The position numbers were made by a program, and so were the translations under genes. The notes beneath the pieces were generated by a model. It did no database searches, was not told where the DNA came from, and saw only the letters and a program-made list of their open reading frames with translations. DNA of 49,599 nucleotides from a virus. Below, one piece after another: positions 14,668 to 49,599 of this stretch (its first letter is position 1; each line of letters begins with the position of its first letter). The stretch spans positions 1-49,599 of the IMG/VR virus record IMGVR_UViG_3300049432_000046, one strand, 5' to 3'.

Positions 14668-15693
14668 CTACCGGCGGGCGATCTTCCCGCGCTTGCCGGG
14701 AGCGCCGACGGTGCAGCGGTACCCGCCGCGGTGGAGGCTCGCGCGGAGCGCCTTCGCTCGAGCGGCCTGCCCCTTCGGCAGCCGGCCGACGGGCTTGAGG
14801 TGGTGCGCCCGGTGGTAGCTCGCGGAGTGCCGGCGGATCGTGTTCAGCTCCGTGCATTTCGCGCGCGCCGTCTTCGAGATCGGCTGCGGCGCCGCCCCGG
14901 AGTCGGTGAGTTGGCGTTGGAGCACGTCGAACGGGAACGTGGGTGCCACGTCGGTGTGGTTGTTGAGGCATTCGAGGTGGTTGTGGTCGGTGTAGCCCGG
15001 CGGGAAGTTGCAGCCGACGGGGTCCACGAACCTGAGCGGGATGCCGTTCGCGCGCATCGTGTCGCGCATGAGCGCGGCGAGGGTGCCGTGCTGGAAGATG
15101 CCCGCCTTCAGCCAGTCGTCGCGGGAGAGGTTGTAGCCCGTGGTGACCAGCTCGATCGAGATGGCGTACGAGTTCGCGCCGAGCTGCGTCCACGGCTTCT
15201 CCGAGATTGGGACGGCCTGGATGCAGTCCTTACCGTCGAGCGACATGATGAACGTCGCGTTCGCGGCGCGGGTGCGGGCGAAGTAGTCGAGGATCGACCG
15301 CGGCGTGCCGTTGCCCGCCGTGTAGTGGAGGATCCATTCGGTCGGCTTGATCCCGTTGCGCGACGAGTAGAGGTGGTCGGAGAAGTCCTTGCGGCACGAG
15401 TAGGTCTGCGCGCCGGCGGGCGGGATCGGCGCGACGAGCGCCAGTTCGTTGCCGATGTTGCCGAGCACGGTGGCGGGGGAGGGCGAGCCCTTCAGTGGCC
15501 CTTCGGTGTTGAGGTCGCCCTGTGGGGCCTGCGAGACGATCGGCACGGTGATCGTCACGCGGTCGGGGCGGCCGTCGCCGTCGTCGTCGAGCAGGGCGAT
15601 GCCGAGCCCGAGCGTCGGGAGCAGGCAGGCGAGGACGACGAGCGCGGTCTTGCTCGTCAGGGCAGCGAGAAGCGCCCTCAGGCGGGGTGGCAT
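14668..15693 (-). CDS. Endolysin: N-acetylmuramoyl-L-alanine amidase with N-terminal membrane signal
   Basis: A 341-residue protein. Residues about 12-35 form a hydrophobic helix after a basic N terminus, a signal-anchor or signal-peptide type start, followed by a Ca-loop-like DDDGDGRPD. The Amidase_2 domain spans about 95-260: ILHYTAG with H123, a strand with SIELV, TDHNHLEC (H237, H239) and NNHTDVAP (H246, D248), giving the zinc ligands. The C-terminal 75 residues are basic with a repeat-like helical pair and two cysteines and may bind the wall. The N-terminal helix suggests host-exported lysin activated on membrane depolarisation. A few bases downstream is the shared terminator. Confidence 0.88.
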   Translation of the reverse strand: MPPRLRALLAALTSKTALVVLACLLPTLGLGIALLDDDGDGRPDRVTITVPIVSQAPQGDLNTEGPLKGSPSPATVLGNIGNELALVAPIPPAGAQTYSCRKDFSDHLYSSRNGIKPTEWILHYTAGNGTPRSILDYFARTRAANATFIMSLDGKDCIQAVPISEKPWTQLGANSYAISIELVTTGYNLSRDDWLKAGIFQHGTLAALMRDTMRANGIPLRFVDPVGCNFPPGYTDHNHLECLNNHTDVAPTFPFDVLQRQLTDSGAAPQPISKTARAKCTELNTIRRHSASYHRAHHLKPVGRLPKGQAARAKALRASLHRGGYRCTVGAPGKRGKIARR

Positions 15694-15747: not shown

Positions 15748-16146
15748 CTACTTGGCGAACAGCGCGGCGAACAGCGCGGCGGCGGCGATCGTGAGCGACG
15801 GCGCCTGGTTCCAGAGCCACGCCTTCAGGTCTCGTTTGCCGCCTTCGATCGCGGTCAGGCGCCGCTCGACTTCGATCGCGACGGCGACCTTGTCTTCGGT
15901 CTCGTTCAGGCGCCGCTCGTGCGAGCTGATGAACGTCTCGGCGGCGATCACGCGCGTGTCGATGCCGTCGACGGTGGTCTCGAGCGCGTCGACGCGGGAG
16001 AGCCGCTGGTTGATCGCGCGCAGCTCGGCGCCGATCGTGCGGAGCTCTGCGCTGAGCAGCTTCTCGAAGCCCTGGAAGGCGCGGTCGATCGCGGTGTCCA
16101 TTTGTTCGTGGTCGACGGGGGGGCCGTCGCGTGCGGGTTCGGGCAT
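15748..16146 (-). CDS. Coiled-coil protein with C-terminal membrane anchor (holin or spanin-like candidate)
   Basis: A 132-residue protein from ATG 16146, which has a GGAGAG ribosome site. A long coiled coil (about 15-105, with many hydrophobic/charged heptads such as LRTIGAELRAINQRLSRVDALE) ends in one transmembrane helix at the very C terminus (PSLTIAAAALFAALFAK). It lies next to the lysin, so a holin or holin regulator is likely. The tail-anchored layout recalls the phage haemolysin XhlA type. Confidence 0.7.
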   Translation of the reverse strand: MPEPARDGPPVDHEQMDTAIDRAFQGFEKLLSAELRTIGAELRAINQRLSRVDALETTVDGIDTRVIAAETFISSHERRLNETEDKVAVAIEVERRLTAIEGGKRDLKAWLWNQAPSLTIAAAALFAALFAK

Positions 16147-16313
16147 GGGCGTGTCTCTCCGAGTTGGTGGGTCGGCCGCGATGCTCAGCGCTCGGTGAGT
16201 TCGTGGGTGCTCGTGACGACCGTCGTCGGTCATTCCGGCACCGCGCCCTCGGCTGTGGTTTCCACGGGTCGCTCCCGTGTGGCATGGCGGCAGGTTTCGT
16301 CTGTCGCTGTGGA

Positions 16314-16365: not shown

Positions 16366-16797
16366 TCAGCCCCCGAACGCGATCACCACGACCGCGACGA
16401 CTCCGAGGAATGCCACGACCACCGCCGCGAGCGCGATCGCCTGTCCGGTCGTGATCTCCTGCCGCCGCGTCGTCTCAGCCACGGCCGTCTCCTGCCCCGC
16501 CATCCGCAGGCCCGCGTCTTCGAGCAGCTTCAGGCGGGTGGCGAGAGCGCTCATGGCCGTCTCGACCTCACGGCGGGACGGGAGGTTCTTGTCGCGGTCG
16601 TCCATCGCGCCGCGCCACTCGTTTGCGTTCTCCCGCCACTTCTCAGCGTTCGCCTCGGCCTTCGTGATCGCCTTGTCCGACGACTCCAAGGCAGCCGCCA
16701 CGGCCTTCTCCTGGGCGAGCAGCGCGGCCTGGAGCGCCTTCTCTTTCTCGGCGAACATGGTGTCCACGTAGTCGCGGAGATCTACGCCTTCGGCCAT
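16366..16797 (-). CDS. Coiled-coil protein with C-terminal membrane anchor (second lysis candidate)
   Basis: A 143-residue protein from ATG 16797 (AGAGGA ribosome site). Residues about 10-110 are a charged coiled coil (FAEKEKALQAALLAQEKAVAA...) and the last 25 residues form one transmembrane helix (AIALAAVVVAFLGVVAVVVIAFG). It has the same architecture as the 15748-16146 product but little visible sequence identity. Together they may form a holin and a partner. Separate transcription is suggested by the terminator after it. Confidence 0.72.
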   Translation of the reverse strand: MAEGVDLRDYVDTMFAEKEKALQAALLAQEKAVAAALESSDKAITKAEANAEKWRENANEWRGAMDDRDKNLPSRREVETAMSALATRLKLLEDAGLRMAGQETAVAETTRRQEITTGQAIALAAVVVAFLGVVAVVVIAFGG

Positions 16798-16819: not shown

Positions 16820-16832
16820 TACGGTCGGTCGC
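16820..16832 (+). promoter_or_regulatory. -10 box for the secreted HExxH gene (leaderless)
   Basis: TACGGT at 16820-16825 is followed by seven bases and the GTG at 16833. This repeats the arrangement at 13245 and 43005. Only 35 bases separate this start from the divergent gene start at 16797, so the -35 region would lie inside that gene's leader. Confidence 0.45.
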
Positions 16833-17414
16833 GTGAAGCGGTGCGCGTTGCTGGCCGTGGTGGTGGTGCTCTTGGGGGCCGGGCCGGTGGAGGCGGTGAC
16901 GCTGGTGACACCGGACGGCGAGGTCGCGCAGCCGTACCAGCGGTGGGCGAACCGGGCGAAGGTGCCGACACCGCAAGGCGTGGTCACTGTCTATCCAGAG
17001 CGGTGCCCAACCGGGCCGCGGGTCTGCTATTACCGCGACGGTCGGCGCATGTACCTAGATTCCGCTGTGGAGGCCGTGACGGGCGGCAACAAGGACCAGC
17101 GGCTCTCGGTGCGCCTCAGCTTCTTTCACGAGCTGTTCCACGACTTCGACGAGGCCGGGCCACTCACCGACGCCGACCGGGCGGAGTTCATGAGGATCAT
17201 GCGTCTGCGTGGCCCGTGGCGGCAGGATGATCACGACGCCTCACCTAACGAAGCCTTCGCTGATGGTGCGGCGGCGTGTGCGAAACGGGATCGCGTGCGG
17301 ACGTTCGAAACGTCCATAGCCTTCAGCGGCAGCTACCAGCCGACGGCTCGGCAACACCAAGCCGTTTGCGCGCTGATCAGACGCGCCGGCCATTGGATCA
17401 TGTGGCGCCGCTAG
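16833..17414 (+). CDS. Secreted HExxH zinc-metallopeptidase-like protein
   Basis: A 193-residue protein with a classical signal peptide (MKRC, a hydrophobic core, cleavage likely after VEA at about 21). The mature part has FFHELFHDF, an HExxH zinc motif (H99, E100, H103), and NEAFAD 36 residues later, whose E140 is a good third zinc ligand (gluzincin-like arrangement). Paired cysteines (C58/C65 and C149/C179) suggest disulfides. It is read against the late genes, between the last fibre gene (stops overlap at 17411-17414) and the lysis genes, with its own leaderless-type promoter. This is typical of a lysogenic-conversion (moron) gene. Substrate unknown. Confidence 0.78.
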   Translation: MKRCALLAVVVVLLGAGPVEAVTLVTPDGEVAQPYQRWANRAKVPTPQGVVTVYPERCPTGPRVCYYRDGRRMYLDSAVEAVTGGNKDQRLSVRLSFFHELFHDFDEAGPLTDADRAEFMRIMRLRGPWRQDDHDASPNEAFADGAAACAKRDRVRTFETSIAFSGSYQPTARQHQAVCALIRRAGHWIMWRR

Positions 17415-18229
17415 GCCCCGACGTACTCGGCCTCGAAGTGGTTGGCCGCAGGTGTGGTATTGATAGCCACGCTCCCGCCTTGATCGTGCGTTATGACGAT
17501 CTTCGCTGTGTCGGTCGTCCCGTTGAATGGGAGCAGAGTGGAGCCGACGGAGACAGGGCCGGCCCCCGCTGCGGCGGCTTGATAGAAGGCCGAGCCAATC
17601 GGGTCGAGGCTGGAGTGGTCGCACTGGGAAAGCAGGAACTTGTCCACCGACAGTTCTCCAGGGAATAACGCCACCCCCCACGACACCCGATAGGTGCCCG
17701 CCACGGTGGGCAGGAAGATGCCCGTAGTCGTGTTGTACCAACCGTTCGGGTCTGTCTCCGTGTTGAATATGACCGTGGCCCCGGTCGCGTAGCTCGCGGC
17801 CGACGAGCGGTAGGCGCGGAAGTAGGGCGAGGCGCCGATGCCCTTCTGGCTCACCCCGTTCGGGAAGTCCACCACGCCCGTGTTGTGGTCGAACGTGAGT
17901 CCCGTCTTCTTCGCCGCGAGCGCGTCCGTGACGGACTTCAGCGACGTGACGCCCGCTGTCGTCTGGAGCCGAGAGTTCTTCAAGTTCGCGCCCGCAGACG
18001 TGTCCTTCAAACCGAGCGGCCCCAACCCCCCAGCCGAACTGACAAGGATGCCGCCATTCGTGACGAACAGATCGCCGTCGGTGGTCAGCGACGAACCGAG
18101 CACCACCGGCGCGTCCATCATCGCCTCGATCGAGTCGGCCAGCGCCTTCAGATGTGCAGGAACATCCGCCGCCGAAGTGTCACCCGGATAGGCCAGCCCT
18201 CGTGAAGTCGTGCCCGCAGTCGTCGCCAT
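17411..18229 (-). CDS. Tail fibre / receptor-binding protein with C1q-like C-terminal domain
   Basis: A 272-residue protein, last gene of the tail module. The N-terminal 40 residues (ending AHLKALADSIEAMM) are the short helical segment usual for baseplate attachment, the middle is repetitive and beta-rich, and residues about 130-272 resemble a C1q/TNF-type jelly roll (SPYFRAYRSSAASY, TGIFLPTVAGTYRVSW). Such domains trimerise and bind receptors at fibre tips. No separate fibre-assembly chaperone is seen. Confidence 0.82.
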   Translation of the reverse strand: MATTAGTTSRGLAYPGDTSAADVPAHLKALADSIEAMMDAPVVLGSSLTTDGDLFVTNGGILVSSAGGLGPLGLKDTSAGANLKNSRLQTTAGVTSLKSVTDALAAKKTGLTFDHNTGVVDFPNGVSQKGIGASPYFRAYRSSAASYATGATVIFNTETDPNGWYNTTTGIFLPTVAGTYRVSWGVALFPGELSVDKFLLSQCDHSSLDPIGSAFYQAAAAGAGPVSVGSTLLPFNGTTDTAKIVITHDQGGSVAINTTPAANHFEAEYVGA

Positions 18230-18243
18230 GCCTCAAGTCCTCT

Positions 18244-18882
18244 CTAGGTCACCGACGGATCGGCGCGCAACTCGTCGTAATCGGTGAACTCGGCCTTCAC
18301 GTCCGCGTAATCCACGTGGGTCGACTTCAACGTCGCGTAGTCCCCGCCGACCACCGTCGTGTAGGTGAGCGTGATGCCGGCGGGCTTTTGCTCACGAATG
18401 GCGGCCTCCACGATCGCCGTGTCAGCAGTCTCGGAAACGAGCGTCGCGACGCCCAGCTTGTACGCGCCGCCCTGCCGCTCATTCAGGTACACCGTCGCCG
18501 TCGCGCCCGTCCCATCCGGACCCGTCAAGTGCTGCCTCGCGGCTCCCTGGATAGCGGCCACGGTGCCACGCTTGAAGCCGTCCGTCTCCTTGATCCTGAG
18601 CCGCTGCCCAGCCTCATCGAGATTCGGGGGCAACACGACCCCGACGAACTGCGCGAGCCACGGCAACCAAGCCGCGGGGCAGTTGTCCGGGTCGAAGATG
18701 ACCGTCCACCCCGGCGAGCCGTCCTCACCATCCAACACCACGTCCGCGATCGGGTCGAGCGGGGCACAGAGCGCGGCGCAGAAGTACGCACCCGCCCAGC
18801 CGTTGTCCTCGTCGAGCACCATCAGCGGGCCCATCGAGTCGTACAGCCTCTGCGCGGTCCGGCTCAGCGTCGGCTGGGCCAT
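18244..18882 (-). CDS. Baseplate protein, P2 gpI-like
   Basis: A 212-residue protein placed directly after the gpJ-like gene, the P2 order J-I. The start (TAQRLYDSMGPL...), the segment PAAWLPWLAQFVGV, and KETDGFKRGTVAAIQGAARQHLTG fit the gpI-type pattern, which joins the baseplate wedge to the fibre. Its ATG overlaps the gpJ stop by one base. Confidence 0.82.
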   Translation of the reverse strand: MAQPTLSRTAQRLYDSMGPLMVLDEDNGWAGAYFCAALCAPLDPIADVVLDGEDGSPGWTVIFDPDNCPAAWLPWLAQFVGVVLPPNLDEAGQRLRIKETDGFKRGTVAAIQGAARQHLTGPDGTGATATVYLNERQGGAYKLGVATLVSETADTAIVEAAIREQKPAGITLTYTTVVGGDYATLKSTHVDYADVKAEFTDYDELRADPSVT

Positions 18883-20051
18883 CAGGAGACCGTCACCGCG
18901 ATGCCGGCGCCCGGCGTCGGCAACCCCACCGGGTGCGCGTTATCGACCGGCAGCGTGTAGTCGGCGGCCGACAGCGCGCCGCCCTGCAACCCGAGCGTCA
19001 ACGCCGTGACCGACTTCACGCCCTCCACCGAATACAGCGCGTCGTAGGCGCGGCCGAGGCGGACCTTCGTCTCGAGCTCCCATGCGCGTTCCTCACCGAA
19101 CGTCGGCTGCCCGTGCAACGACGGGTCCGTCAACGCCTGGAGCGCAGCCGTAGCGGCAGCATCGACATCGGCCGAGAGGAACCCGTCCCACATCGTCACC
19201 GTGGCGTGAATCTCGACGGCCGTGTACTTCGCGTCCGCGACGTTCACCACGAAGTTCACCTCGCGCATCGCCTGCAACAACGTGTCGAGGTCCGTCTTGT
19301 CGCCGGCCGACAGGGCGGTGCCGTCGTCCTGTCGGCCGATCACGGTCACCATCCGGTCGTTGTTCGACGTGCCGTCCGAGGGGTTGTAACCGTCGAGGGT
19401 GATCGCCGAGTCGACGGCGGCGATCCGCTTCGCGAGCTGCGAGAAGTCGCGTGGCAGGATCGGCCGCGGCGCCTGCAACCGTAGCTCCTGGGTGAGGCGC
19501 TCGAGGTACACCTCGTCGTCCTCCGCGTCAGACCCGCCGGACGTAGCCGCGTCGAGCGTGACCGTGTCGACGAACGCGAGCGAATCGACCCGCTCGACCG
19601 TCCCGGACAGGTCATTCCCCGCCTCGCCCGCCTCGACCGCTATCACCGGCACCCCGGCCTCCGTGCCGGCCGCGGCCAGCGTCACGGCCTGGGTTGTCTG
19701 GAACGCCACCAGCTGGTCGTCGAGACCTGTCAACGCGATCGTGAAGCCCGCGTCGACGGTGCCGCCCACCGTGGCGGAAGCGGCGATCGTGATCGTGGAG
19801 GATGCAGCGACAGCCTCGATCGGCGGGACGCCATGTAGAAACGCGCCGGCGTAGCGGTAGATGGACGTGTCGACATCGGCAGCGGTCTCCGCCACCTGCG
19901 CCGTGATCGACGCGAACCCGAGCCCCACGTTCGTGTCGGCCTGCGGGTCCGAGGGCAGCCAGCCGGGGAACGCGGCCTGCATCTGCTCGACGAAGATCGC
20001 GAAGTGGTCCTCGGGATCGACCGTGATCGGGTCGGTGATCGGTGTCGCCAC
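18882..20051 (-). CDS. Baseplate wedge protein, gpJ-like
   Basis: A 389-residue protein with the baseplate-J pattern: an N-terminal region, a beta domain (about 85-160), and the conserved stretch GGSDAEDDEVYLERLTQELR (about 174-193). It forms the wedge ring around the hub in contractile tails. It lies between gp25-like and gpI-like genes, in canonical order. Confidence 0.9.
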   Translation of the reverse strand: MATPITDPITVDPEDHFAIFVEQMQAAFPGWLPSDPQADTNVGLGFASITAQVAETAADVDTSIYRYAGAFLHGVPPIEAVAASSTITIAASATVGGTVDAGFTIALTGLDDQLVAFQTTQAVTLAAAGTEAGVPVIAVEAGEAGNDLSGTVERVDSLAFVDTVTLDAATSGGSDAEDDEVYLERLTQELRLQAPRPILPRDFSQLAKRIAAVDSAITLDGYNPSDGTSNNDRMVTVIGRQDDGTALSAGDKTDLDTLLQAMREVNFVVNVADAKYTAVEIHATVTMWDGFLSADVDAAATAALQALTDPSLHGQPTFGEERAWELETKVRLGRAYDALYSVEGVKSVTALTLGLQGGALSAADYTLPVDNAHPVGLPTPGAGIAVTVS

Positions 20052-41648: not shown

Positions 41649-42338
41649 CTATCTGACGCGCTTCGGGGTCGGGAGGTCCGGTGTGCGCCGCCGGGCGGGC
41701 GGGCGCTCGTAACCGCAGATGGTCGACACCGAATTCGGCCGCCACTGCGACCCGCCGCGGATCGTCGGCACACCCTCGGCGTTCAGCGCGTCGGCGACAC
41801 CTTGCAGGGTCATGGTCTGGCGCATCTCCTTGATCCGCTCCGCGAGCTCGGGGTCGTCGGCGACGGCGGGGCGGCCGGCGCGCTTGCCCCTCGCCCTGAG
41901 CGCGGCGAGAGCTGACACGGTGCGCTCGGCGGTCGTGCCGCGCTCCCACTCGGCGACGGCGACGATCACCGTGGCGATCATCCGGCCCGTGGCCTTCGAG
42001 GTGTCGAGGCCGTCGAAGTCGAGGGCGATCAGACCGGCCTTGGCGTGGAGGAACCAGTCGATCAGCGCGCCGAGGTCGGCGCTCGAGCGGGTGAGGCGGT
42101 CGAGCTTCATCACGGCGATCGCGTCGGCTTTGCCGTCGGCGATGCGTTGCAGCGCGTCCATGAGGGCGGGGCGCTTGAGGTCCTTGGCGGAGTAGCCCTC
42201 GTCGGCGACGATGGTGATGAGGCGTTGTCCGTCGCGGTGCTTGAAGGCCTGCTTGAGGGCGTGGCGTTGGGCTTCGAGGCCGAGGCCGGAGAGGGCCTGT
42301 TCCTCGGTGCTCACACGGACGTAGCCGATGACGCGCAC
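41649..42338 (-). CDS. Serine recombinase, resolvase/invertase family
   Basis: A 229-residue protein from GTG 42338, with a strong ribosome site (GGGAGG). The catalytic domain shows YVRVSTEEQ with nucleophile S10, DEGYSAKDLKRPAL, and KLDRLTRSS; a long E helix and a C-terminal HTH (MTLQGVADALNAEGVPTIRGG) follow. It may catalyse resolution or inversion at a nearby site. The phage already has a tyrosine integrase, so this enzyme is extra. It has no transposase beside it. The 440-bp repeat-bearing non-coding region directly upstream is a candidate for its site. Confidence 0.9.
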   Translation of the reverse strand: MRVIGYVRVSTEEQALSGLGLEAQRHALKQAFKHRDGQRLITIVADEGYSAKDLKRPALMDALQRIADGKADAIAVMKLDRLTRSSADLGALIDWFLHAKAGLIALDFDGLDTSKATGRMIATVIVAVAEWERGTTAERTVSALAALRARGKRAGRPAVADDPELAERIKEMRQTMTLQGVADALNAEGVPTIRGGSQWRPNSVSTICGYERPPARRRTPDLPTPKRVR

Positions 42339-46576: not shown

Positions 46577-47737
46577 TCACGCGTCGTGACCTCGGAGCAT
46601 GTGGCCGTACTCGCCCTCGAGCGCGTCCTGCGCCTCCCTGGCCTGCTTCGCCGCACGGAACAGGTGCGCGTACGTCCTCAGCGTCACCGACGGGTCGGTG
46701 TGGCCGAGCTGGTCCGCGACGAACACCGGGTCGCGGCCCTGCGCGATCAGCATGCTCGCAAACGTGTGCCGCAGCGTGTGGTTCGTGACGCCCTCGAGCC
46801 CCGCGCGCTCGACCGCCTTCTCGAACGCACGGGTCGCGTTGCGGGTCGAAAGCGCCGTGCGGTTGGCGGTGGCGAATACCGGGTCGCGCGGGCGGCTGTA
46901 GGGCGCGGCGAGCTTCGCGCGCCGGAGCATCGCCGCGAGCGAGTCCATCAGGATCACTTCGCGCCGAGCGGCCGGCGTCTTGATCGTCACGCGCCTGCCG
47001 TCGCGGCCCAGCTGCCACCGCACCCGCACTCGCCCCGCGTCGAAGTCGACGTCCTCCCACCACAGCCCGAGCGTCTCCGAGATCCGCAGCCCGCCGAACA
47101 GGCACACCGCGGCGAGCAGCCGGTAACGCGGAGCGCTCGCAGCGAGCAGAGCGCGCATCTCGTCGTCGGTCAGGAACCGCGGCCTCGGGTTGCCCGCGCT
47201 CGGCCGCTCGCGCCGCTCGAGCAGGTCGGCAGGGTTCTGCTCGAGCGGGCCGTAGCGCGCAGCGTGCGCGAGGATCAGCCGCAGCGCCGTCCAGCGGCCC
47301 TTGATCGACCACGCGGCCGCGCCTTGGATGCGCTGGTCGGCGTGCCAGTCCATCAGGTCATCGGGGGTGAGCGAGCGAACGCGTCGCGAGCCCAGGAACG
47401 GCTTGAGATGGAGCCGCGCCGCGGACTCGTAGGCGTCGTAGGTGCGCGGCGCGATCTCCCCGACGGCGAGCAGCTGCGCCTGCCGCTTCAGCCACGCGTC
47501 GGCCGCCTCGCCGAACGTCATCCGTGTGCTCACGCCCTCGCGCGGCGCGCGGCTCGAGCGGACCTCCTGGCGGAACTCGTCGCGCAACGCACGGGCGCGC
47601 ATCAGGCCGACCTCGCCGAGCGTCTTCCACCTTGGCCGCCGCTGCCCCGGCGCCGTCGCGCACGCGATGTACGTCTTGCCAGCCAGATACAGGCCCTGCT
47701 CCACGCGCACGCGCTGCGCCTTACGCGGCATTCGCAC
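46577..47737 (-). CDS. int: Tyrosine integrase
   Basis: A 386-residue protein. An N-terminal arm-binding segment (about 1-60), a SAM-like core-binding domain (about 72-165, TFGEAADAWLKRQ) and the catalytic domain with R218 (GGLRISE), K253 (KTPAARRE), H320/R323 (HTLRHTFAS), H346 (LGH) and nucleophile Y356 (YAHLF). All catalytic residues are present. It integrates the genome at attP just downstream, with help probably from mIHF. It overlaps the HTH gene upstream by 17 bases. Confidence 0.95.
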   Translation of the reverse strand: MRMPRKAQRVRVEQGLYLAGKTYIACATAPGQRRPRWKTLGEVGLMRARALRDEFRQEVRSSRAPREGVSTRMTFGEAADAWLKRQAQLLAVGEIAPRTYDAYESAARLHLKPFLGSRRVRSLTPDDLMDWHADQRIQGAAAWSIKGRWTALRLILAHAARYGPLEQNPADLLERRERPSAGNPRPRFLTDDEMRALLAASAPRYRLLAAVCLFGGLRISETLGLWWEDVDFDAGRVRVRWQLGRDGRRVTIKTPAARREVILMDSLAAMLRRAKLAAPYSRPRDPVFATANRTALSTRNATRAFEKAVERAGLEGVTNHTLRHTFASMLIAQGRDPVFVADQLGHTDPSVTLRTYAHLFRAAKQAREAQDALEGEYGHMLRGHDA

Positions 47738-49449: not shown

Positions 49450-49599
49450 TTCGCACCCTCCGTTCGGCGCAGTTGAGCTTTCGCATTACGTACCTGCCGC
49501 TTCAGGTCGTCTAGGTCCCCTTGCGCCCGAACGGCGGCCGCCTCGGCAACGTTCCGAGCGGTCGTGTAGCGATCATGCTCGCCGGCGAGCATCGCGAGC
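49446..49599 (-). CDS. C-terminal part of the contig-end zinc-finger/coiled-coil protein
   Basis: Continues the frame of 28-225 when the terminal repeats are merged with the C allele at 49580 (GAG codon). It adds 44 residues of coiled coil (EHDRYTTARNVAEAAAV...RNAKAQLRR) and ends at 49446, overlapping the next ATG. The first codons lie within the repeat. Confidence 0.75.
   Translation of the reverse strand, partial: LAMLAGEHDRYTTARNVAEAAAVRAQGDLDDLKRQVRNAKAQLRRTEGAK
49551..49599. repeat. Terminal direct repeat, right copy
   Basis: Copy of bases 1-49 with C at 49580 in place of A at 30. Merging the copies closes a circle of about 49,550 bases. Confidence 0.9.

Follow-up and report, generated by a model that had tools for sequence, protein, structure and literature searches.

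Several described exported proteins resemble the product of the phage gene considered here. The Pro-Pro endopeptidase PPEP-1 (Zmp1) of Clostridioides is secreted, is about 195 aa long and carries an HExxH motif with the third-ligand glutamate about 40 residues further on. It cleaves and frees surface adhesins of the bacterium that makes it (PMC6447587), and its targets are the producer's own surface proteins (PMC6447587, PMC9147577). For peptidase family M34, the active-site pair is given as Tyr174/Glu181 (PMC9147577). Listeria Mtz is a Sec-exported HExxH peptidase of phage origin that acts on the envelope of its producer; it has the metzincin motif HExxHxxGxxH/D and a Met-turn, and is paired with a TIMP-like lipoprotein (PMC8235301). 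The exclusion lipoproteins of the type of Llp of T5 are small exported phage proteins that block the receptor, and in related coliphages they are encoded beside the host-specificity gene (PMC9586334). An antisense placement to the lytic genes is described as characteristic of prophage accessory loci (PMC7067206).

The locus lies in the IMG/VR record IMGVR_UViG_3300049432_000046, the whole of which (49,599 nt, hereafter the window) was analysed. This 49.6-kb viral record has the genes of a tailed phage, namely those for terminase, portal, capsid, tape measure, Baseplate_J, Tail_P2_I and amidase. A 49-nt direct repeat is found in near-identical form, with one mismatch, at its two ends (1-49 and 49551-49599), so that the genome is probably complete, either circular or permuted. 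The host is probably an actinobacterium, since relatives of the terminase were found, in addition to other viral contigs, in contigs of Streptomyces lycii and Rothia nasimurium; among bacterial genomes, those with the nearest relatives of the peptidase belong to one class of the same phylum. The temperate lifestyle implied in the first-pass annotation is supported by a tyrosine integrase and a serine recombinase in the window (Table 1) and by a relative of the peptidase in an apparent prophage: an integrase lies about 3.4 kb away from locus L097 of genome G713 and has a host-type gene after it, and the same genome carries a chromosomal peptidase copy on another contig. Integrase or recombinase genes were present in eight carriers, including the window and the G713 locus. 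Among the 14 viral carriers, five had a tyrosine integrase and one more a serine recombinase (6/14); more than half were without a visible integrase, and many of these contigs are fragments.

Table 1. Features of the window around the peptidase gene, and the recombinase genes. Strand "." denotes a palindromic feature.
Feature	Coordinates	Strand	Basis or remark
Amidase_2 endolysin	14668..15693	-	Domain match
Second coiled-coil/membrane protein, lysis side	15748..16233	-	Features by inspection
Coiled-coil protein with C-terminal membrane segment, divergent from the peptidase gene, 35 nt between starts (ATG)	16366..16797	-	Features by inspection
TACGGT, -10-like box ending 7 nt before GTG; putative leaderless promoter	16820..16825	+	Sequence only
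CDS of exported gluzincin-like protein, 193 aa, GTG start, TAG stop	16833..17414	+	ORF, homologs, model
Predicted Sec signal peptide, residues 1-21 (MKRCALLAVVVVLLGAGPVEA; mature start VTLV)	16833..16895	+	Putative cleavage VEA/V by the AXA rule; pattern repeated in 16/16 aligned relatives
Cys58 and Cys65, probable disulfide 1	17004..17027	+	Conservation
HELFH, residues 99-103; H99 and H103 putative zinc ligands, E100 putative catalytic base	17127..17141	+	Invariant H, E, H; model helix 87-108
NEAFAD, residues 139-144; E140 putative third zinc ligand, D144 putative second-shell acid	17247..17264	+	Conservation; model helix 138-151
Cys149 and Cys179, probable disulfide 2	17277..17369	+	Among aligned members, absent from L096 only
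CTAG, palindromic stop common to the peptidase gene (+) and the fibre-position gene (-)	17411..17414	.	4-nt stop overlap also in L102, L105, L107, L108, L110, L111
Fibre-position gene, 272 aa, convergent with the peptidase gene	17411..18229	-	Weak C1q-like match only, E=0.024
Tail_P2_I family tail protein	18244..18882	-	E=2e-5
Baseplate J-like protein	18882..20051	-	Family match
Serine recombinase	41649..42338	-	Temperate lifestyle
Tyrosine integrase	46577..47737	-	Temperate lifestyle

The reading frame of the peptidase is open, the other five frames across it contain 2-9 stops, and the coding score was positive in this frame only; the chance of an open frame of that length in a given frame is about 1% from base composition alone. 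Its synonymous codon usage is unlike that of the late genes (-0.02, against 0.16 to 0.39 in 26 training genes). The signal peptide, HELFH, NEAFAD and paired cysteines read from the sequence in the first-pass annotation are all present, and the motif, the signal peptide and the cysteine pairs are conserved in relatives. HExxH by itself is weak evidence, and it is the existence of a homologous family that makes the gene firm and the explanation of a chance HExxH untenable. Since a full-length relative and 14 viral contigs carry the conserved features, the doubt whether this is a gene is removed: 16833-17414 is a real gene, encoding an exported-type protein with a conserved zincin motif and a predicted zincin fold.

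The window protein used alone found no relatives in Pfam or PHROG, in exact-peptide scans of viral and genome contigs, in tblastn searches of phages and plasmids or in a phmmer search of the PDB. Similarly, no relative was seen in 44 related viral contigs (many of which are fragments), and a search of 396 Actinomycetota genomes gave chance matches only, in which the motif was absent. The two matches of a first motif scan of viral contigs were unrelated zincins and were discarded. The first true relative (IMGVR_UViG_3300036851_000739; 34% identity over most of the length, pairwise E=1e-17) was obtained with a broader DNA motif scan, as follows: HExxH, then an FD-like pair, then ExFA at the right spacing. 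A two-row profile detected relatives in 6 of 349 genomes of one class, and a seven-row profile detected 14 IMG/VR viral contigs as well as chromosomal relatives (L086-L088, L116, L118 and L119; E from 1e-24 to 1e-81) in six genomes that belong to a single bacterial family. Besides a chromosomal branch, the family thus has members in the 14 IMG/VR contigs and at two phage or prophage loci of bacterial genomes, with at least 16 phages and prophages in all. In 12 further Actinomycetota genomes, the profile matched what seem to be secreted HExxH proteins more remote from the family. Four members used as tblastn queries found no relative in the GenBank phage set. The family is absent from Pfam, NCBIfam and PHROGs, and no member had a convincing Pfam, NCBIfam or PADLOC match (PADLOC: none for the window protein, weak capP match in 2/16 members, E=0.0085). 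These results establish a new phage-borne family of exported-type proteins with a predicted zincin fold.

The chromosomal relatives have the domain, signal peptide and cysteine pairs of the window protein, but differ by an extra Pro/Thr-rich C-terminal tail and a common chromosomal neighbourhood. The genomes that carry them are large and, by inspection, at least three copies lie in a common neighbourhood with HemW-like and PurH-like genes. In the tree, whose root is open, the phage copies are deeply diverged on long branches, whereas the chromosomal copies form one shallow clade. The peptidase is therefore an old phage gene family, and a recent capture of a host gene by the window phage was rejected on the same grounds.

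Other proteins came up beside the family. L113 encodes a 401-aa relative (L113:253-1458), possibly a double zincin, in which a second motif, LHEASH, precedes the LHELGH domain. The peptidase of L103 bears a C-terminal LSCxEAxxAI...PxGxC module in common with three neighbouring small secreted-type ORFs; the region (L103:6893-12418, within a viral contig of 39.6 kb) forms an island of genes for exported cargo. A separate family of HELGHHVD proteins (CAYYRP...DRTPYG), with no evident signal peptide, recurs in viral contigs (L076, L077, L078, L080-L082 and L084). Lipoprotein-like HELGHV(I/V)D proteins (L121-L124), encoded by the same host genomes, make up a second, distant chromosomal family.

That the protein is of an exported zinc-metalloprotein type, as first annotated, agrees with the conservation of its residues and with its predicted fold. 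In all 16 aligned relatives, a hydrophobic segment at the N-terminus leads to an AXA-like site, and the mature part is free of membrane segments; these calls were made by simple hydropathy and not with SignalP. Across 16 members, H99, E100, H103, D106, R116, W129, F142, A143 and C65 are invariant, and E140, C149 and C179 nearly so. Counting all 17 members, H99, E100 and H103 are kept in every one and the third-ligand glutamate in 16, with aspartate in L111. The HELFH spelling is unique to the window protein, the remaining members reading HELGH or HEIGH. The structure prediction suggested at first annotation as a check for a gluzincin fold was carried out with AlphaFold2 from 14 sequences, and gave a confident model of zincin type (pLDDT 83.7, pTM 0.81): three strands, a long helix (87-108) with HELFH and a helix (138-151) with E140, in the zincin order. 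In the model, the features of the broad gluzincin group, clan MA(E), are present, with HExxH on the active-site helix and the third-ligand glutamate on the following helix.

Matches of the family to known peptidases were not significant by themselves. The best PDB matches in Foldseek were gluzincins, among them the lethal-factor catalytic domain and minigluzincins, with non-significant E-values (E>=0.19). In a PDB profile search, M34 proteins came first (lethal factor, PPEP-1/Zmp1 and an ATLF-like protein) at E-values of 0.05-0.4, below significance; PPEP-1/Zmp1 and the M34 catalytic core, the nearest among solved proteins, scored 0.05-0.14. The catalytic domain of anthrax lethal factor (M34, ATLF) came top in both searches, at E=0.05 and 0.19 only, and has the HExGHxxD...ExFAxA core in common with the window family, which lacks its delivery domains. 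This core is common to many gluzincins, so no toxin function is implied. The minigluzincins (selecase and jannalysin) likewise have a minimal sheet, an HExxH helix and a glutamate helix, but scores were weak (TM about 0.2) and these are archaeal proteins for which export is not known. The HExxHxxD and ExFAE-like motifs of PPEP-1 align with the window family, at a non-significant profile E of about 0.1, and the family may work like PPEP-1 by analogy; it differs in having two cysteine pairs, in being phage-borne and in lacking the M34 active-site tyrosine seven residues before the glutamate ligand. Because this tyrosine was absent in 17/17 members, the family was not filed in MEROPS family M34; nor did Pfam ATLF match in 16 members. 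Assignment to the metzincins was also rejected: the window protein reads HELFHDFDEAG, with a conserved Asp three residues after the second His and without Gly or His/Asp at the HExxHxxGxxH/D spacing. In contrast to Listeria Mtz, no TIMP-like partner was seen beside the window gene. An endolysin was rejected in the absence of a peptidoglycan-cleaving domain or lysis family in Pfam and PHROG.

The gene was first described as lying between the fibre and lysis genes, against the late genes. This holds for the window, and the antisense orientation holds in 12/17 phage loci (window, L097, L100, L101, L102 and L105-L111), where the 3' neighbour is a convergent fibre-position or virion/fibre-like gene; across the family, however, the association is with the fibre-position gene and not with lysis, because in L106 and L110 the pair sits between portal-like and terminase-like genes (by inspection). 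In seven phage loci the two stops overlap by exactly 4 nt; tight convergent pairs are rare elsewhere in the same contigs (7/239). The fibre identity is based on PHROG matches in L106 (tail fibre, 5e-19) and L111 (virion structural, 5e-8), on Tail_P2_I neighbours in the window and L097, and on position and mutual similarity in other loci; the model of one fibre-position protein (pLDDT 55) was too poor for a fold search. At least three unrelated fibre groups are found beside the peptidases. A test for co-inheritance between the type of fibre and the type of peptidase was negative: the L105 and L106 peptidases are sisters (100/98) beside unrelated fibres, which argues against tight co-inheritance. 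The exceptions to the arrangement are L096, convergent with an amidase endolysin related to that of the window, L085, which lies in the late operon and in its direction, flanked by a tail-tip gene and a weakly XhlA-like gene, L103 and L112, not antisense to a fibre, and L113, which also differs. In the related phage G001 (L052:9725-10306), a different ORF occupies the stretch between fibre and lysozyme, which suggests that variable cargo is taken up there.

The sequence upstream of the GTG fits the leaderless-type start of the first-pass annotation: it has no Shine-Dalgarno and places TACGGT 7 nt before the start. A TANNNT box 6-8 nt before the start was found in 6/16 members (window, L100, L102, L109, L096 and L097) against 12/407 (3%) for long-ORF starts as background, in a test framed after the sequences were inspected; such boxes are compatible with leaderless promoters. 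A scan for sigma-70 promoter and terminator consensus gave no matches. The orientation and the -10-like box fit a putative transcription unit of its own, antisense to the lytic genes. With regard to close phage relatives, the gene was absent from the 44 viral contigs mentioned above, and no peptidase relative was found in the fibre-lysis stretch of two long related phages. Together, the tight antisense convergence, the TANNNT boxes and the integrase genes support an independently transcribed accessory (moron) gene, an arrangement that is not universal, given L085, L103 and L112.

We consider it probable that a temperate actinophage carries this gene as an accessory (moron) gene for an exported gluzincin that is expressed in the lysogen and cleaves a host-surface protein. 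Lying opposite the late genes with a putative promoter of its own, it could be expressed in the lysogen while the late genes are silent. Sec would export the product, the signal peptide would be removed and two disulfides would form, as their conservation suggests. Judging from the conserved residues and the predicted fold, the product would be a small gluzincin-type metallopeptidase, in which H99, H103 and E140 hold zinc and E100 activates water. By analogy with the Clostridioides enzyme, it would most likely cut a protein on or close to the surface of the cell that makes it. The outcome would be a lysogenic conversion of the surface, by which adhesion or the access of other phages may be changed.

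An unlikely rival reading makes the fibre and the peptidase a functional pair: the exported peptidase would remove or clip the surface protein bound by the phage's own fibre, so that the lysogen is protected and progeny are kept from sticking to debris. The recurrent position after the fibre-position gene, even away from the lysis genes, speaks for such receptor-directed superinfection exclusion, as does the existence of receptor-blocking exclusion lipoproteins, which in coliphages are noted downstream of gpJ, the gene for host specificity (PMC9586334); these, however, are not peptidases and have no sequence relation to the window protein. The peptidase type does not match the fibre type, as the sister peptidases and the unrelated fibre groups show, several fibres are assigned by position only and the receptor is hypothetical. 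More doubtful still is the phage-wide form of this idea, in which receptor-clipping exported peptidases, with an antisense fibre partner across unrelated phages, make lysogens of Gram-positive hosts shed their receptor in a proteolytic superinfection exclusion.

Less probable again is a late envelope-weakening factor, which would be made with the lysis genes and cut a surface or wall-associated protein, helping the endolysin to release progeny. In favour of a lysis role, one relative (L085) is codirectional in the late operon; the endolysin neighbour of L096 also fits, and the secreted Listeria metzincin, itself of phage origin, makes cells more sensitive to phage lysins (PMC8235301). Most carriers, including the window, nevertheless have the gene facing the late genes, so that co-transcription is impossible, and the window has an amidase endolysin of its own. 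A very improbable reading is that of an exported zinc-protein scaffold that needs no peptidase activity, or of a nutritional exoprotease without surface target: the aspartate of L111 and the missing N-terminal part of L112 would suit it, but the HExxH residues and, with one exception, the glutamate have been kept despite long branches.

If the preferred reading of a lysogen-expressed surface peptidase is true, many actinophages carry a member of a deeply diverged family of exported peptidases, by which the surface of their lysogens would be reshaped. To our knowledge, few phage examples connect receptor binding and surface proteolysis, and the recurrent convergence with a fibre-position gene makes this link testable. 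The combination of profile and position would also serve as a search handle for lysogenic-conversion genes in poorly studied actinobacteria.
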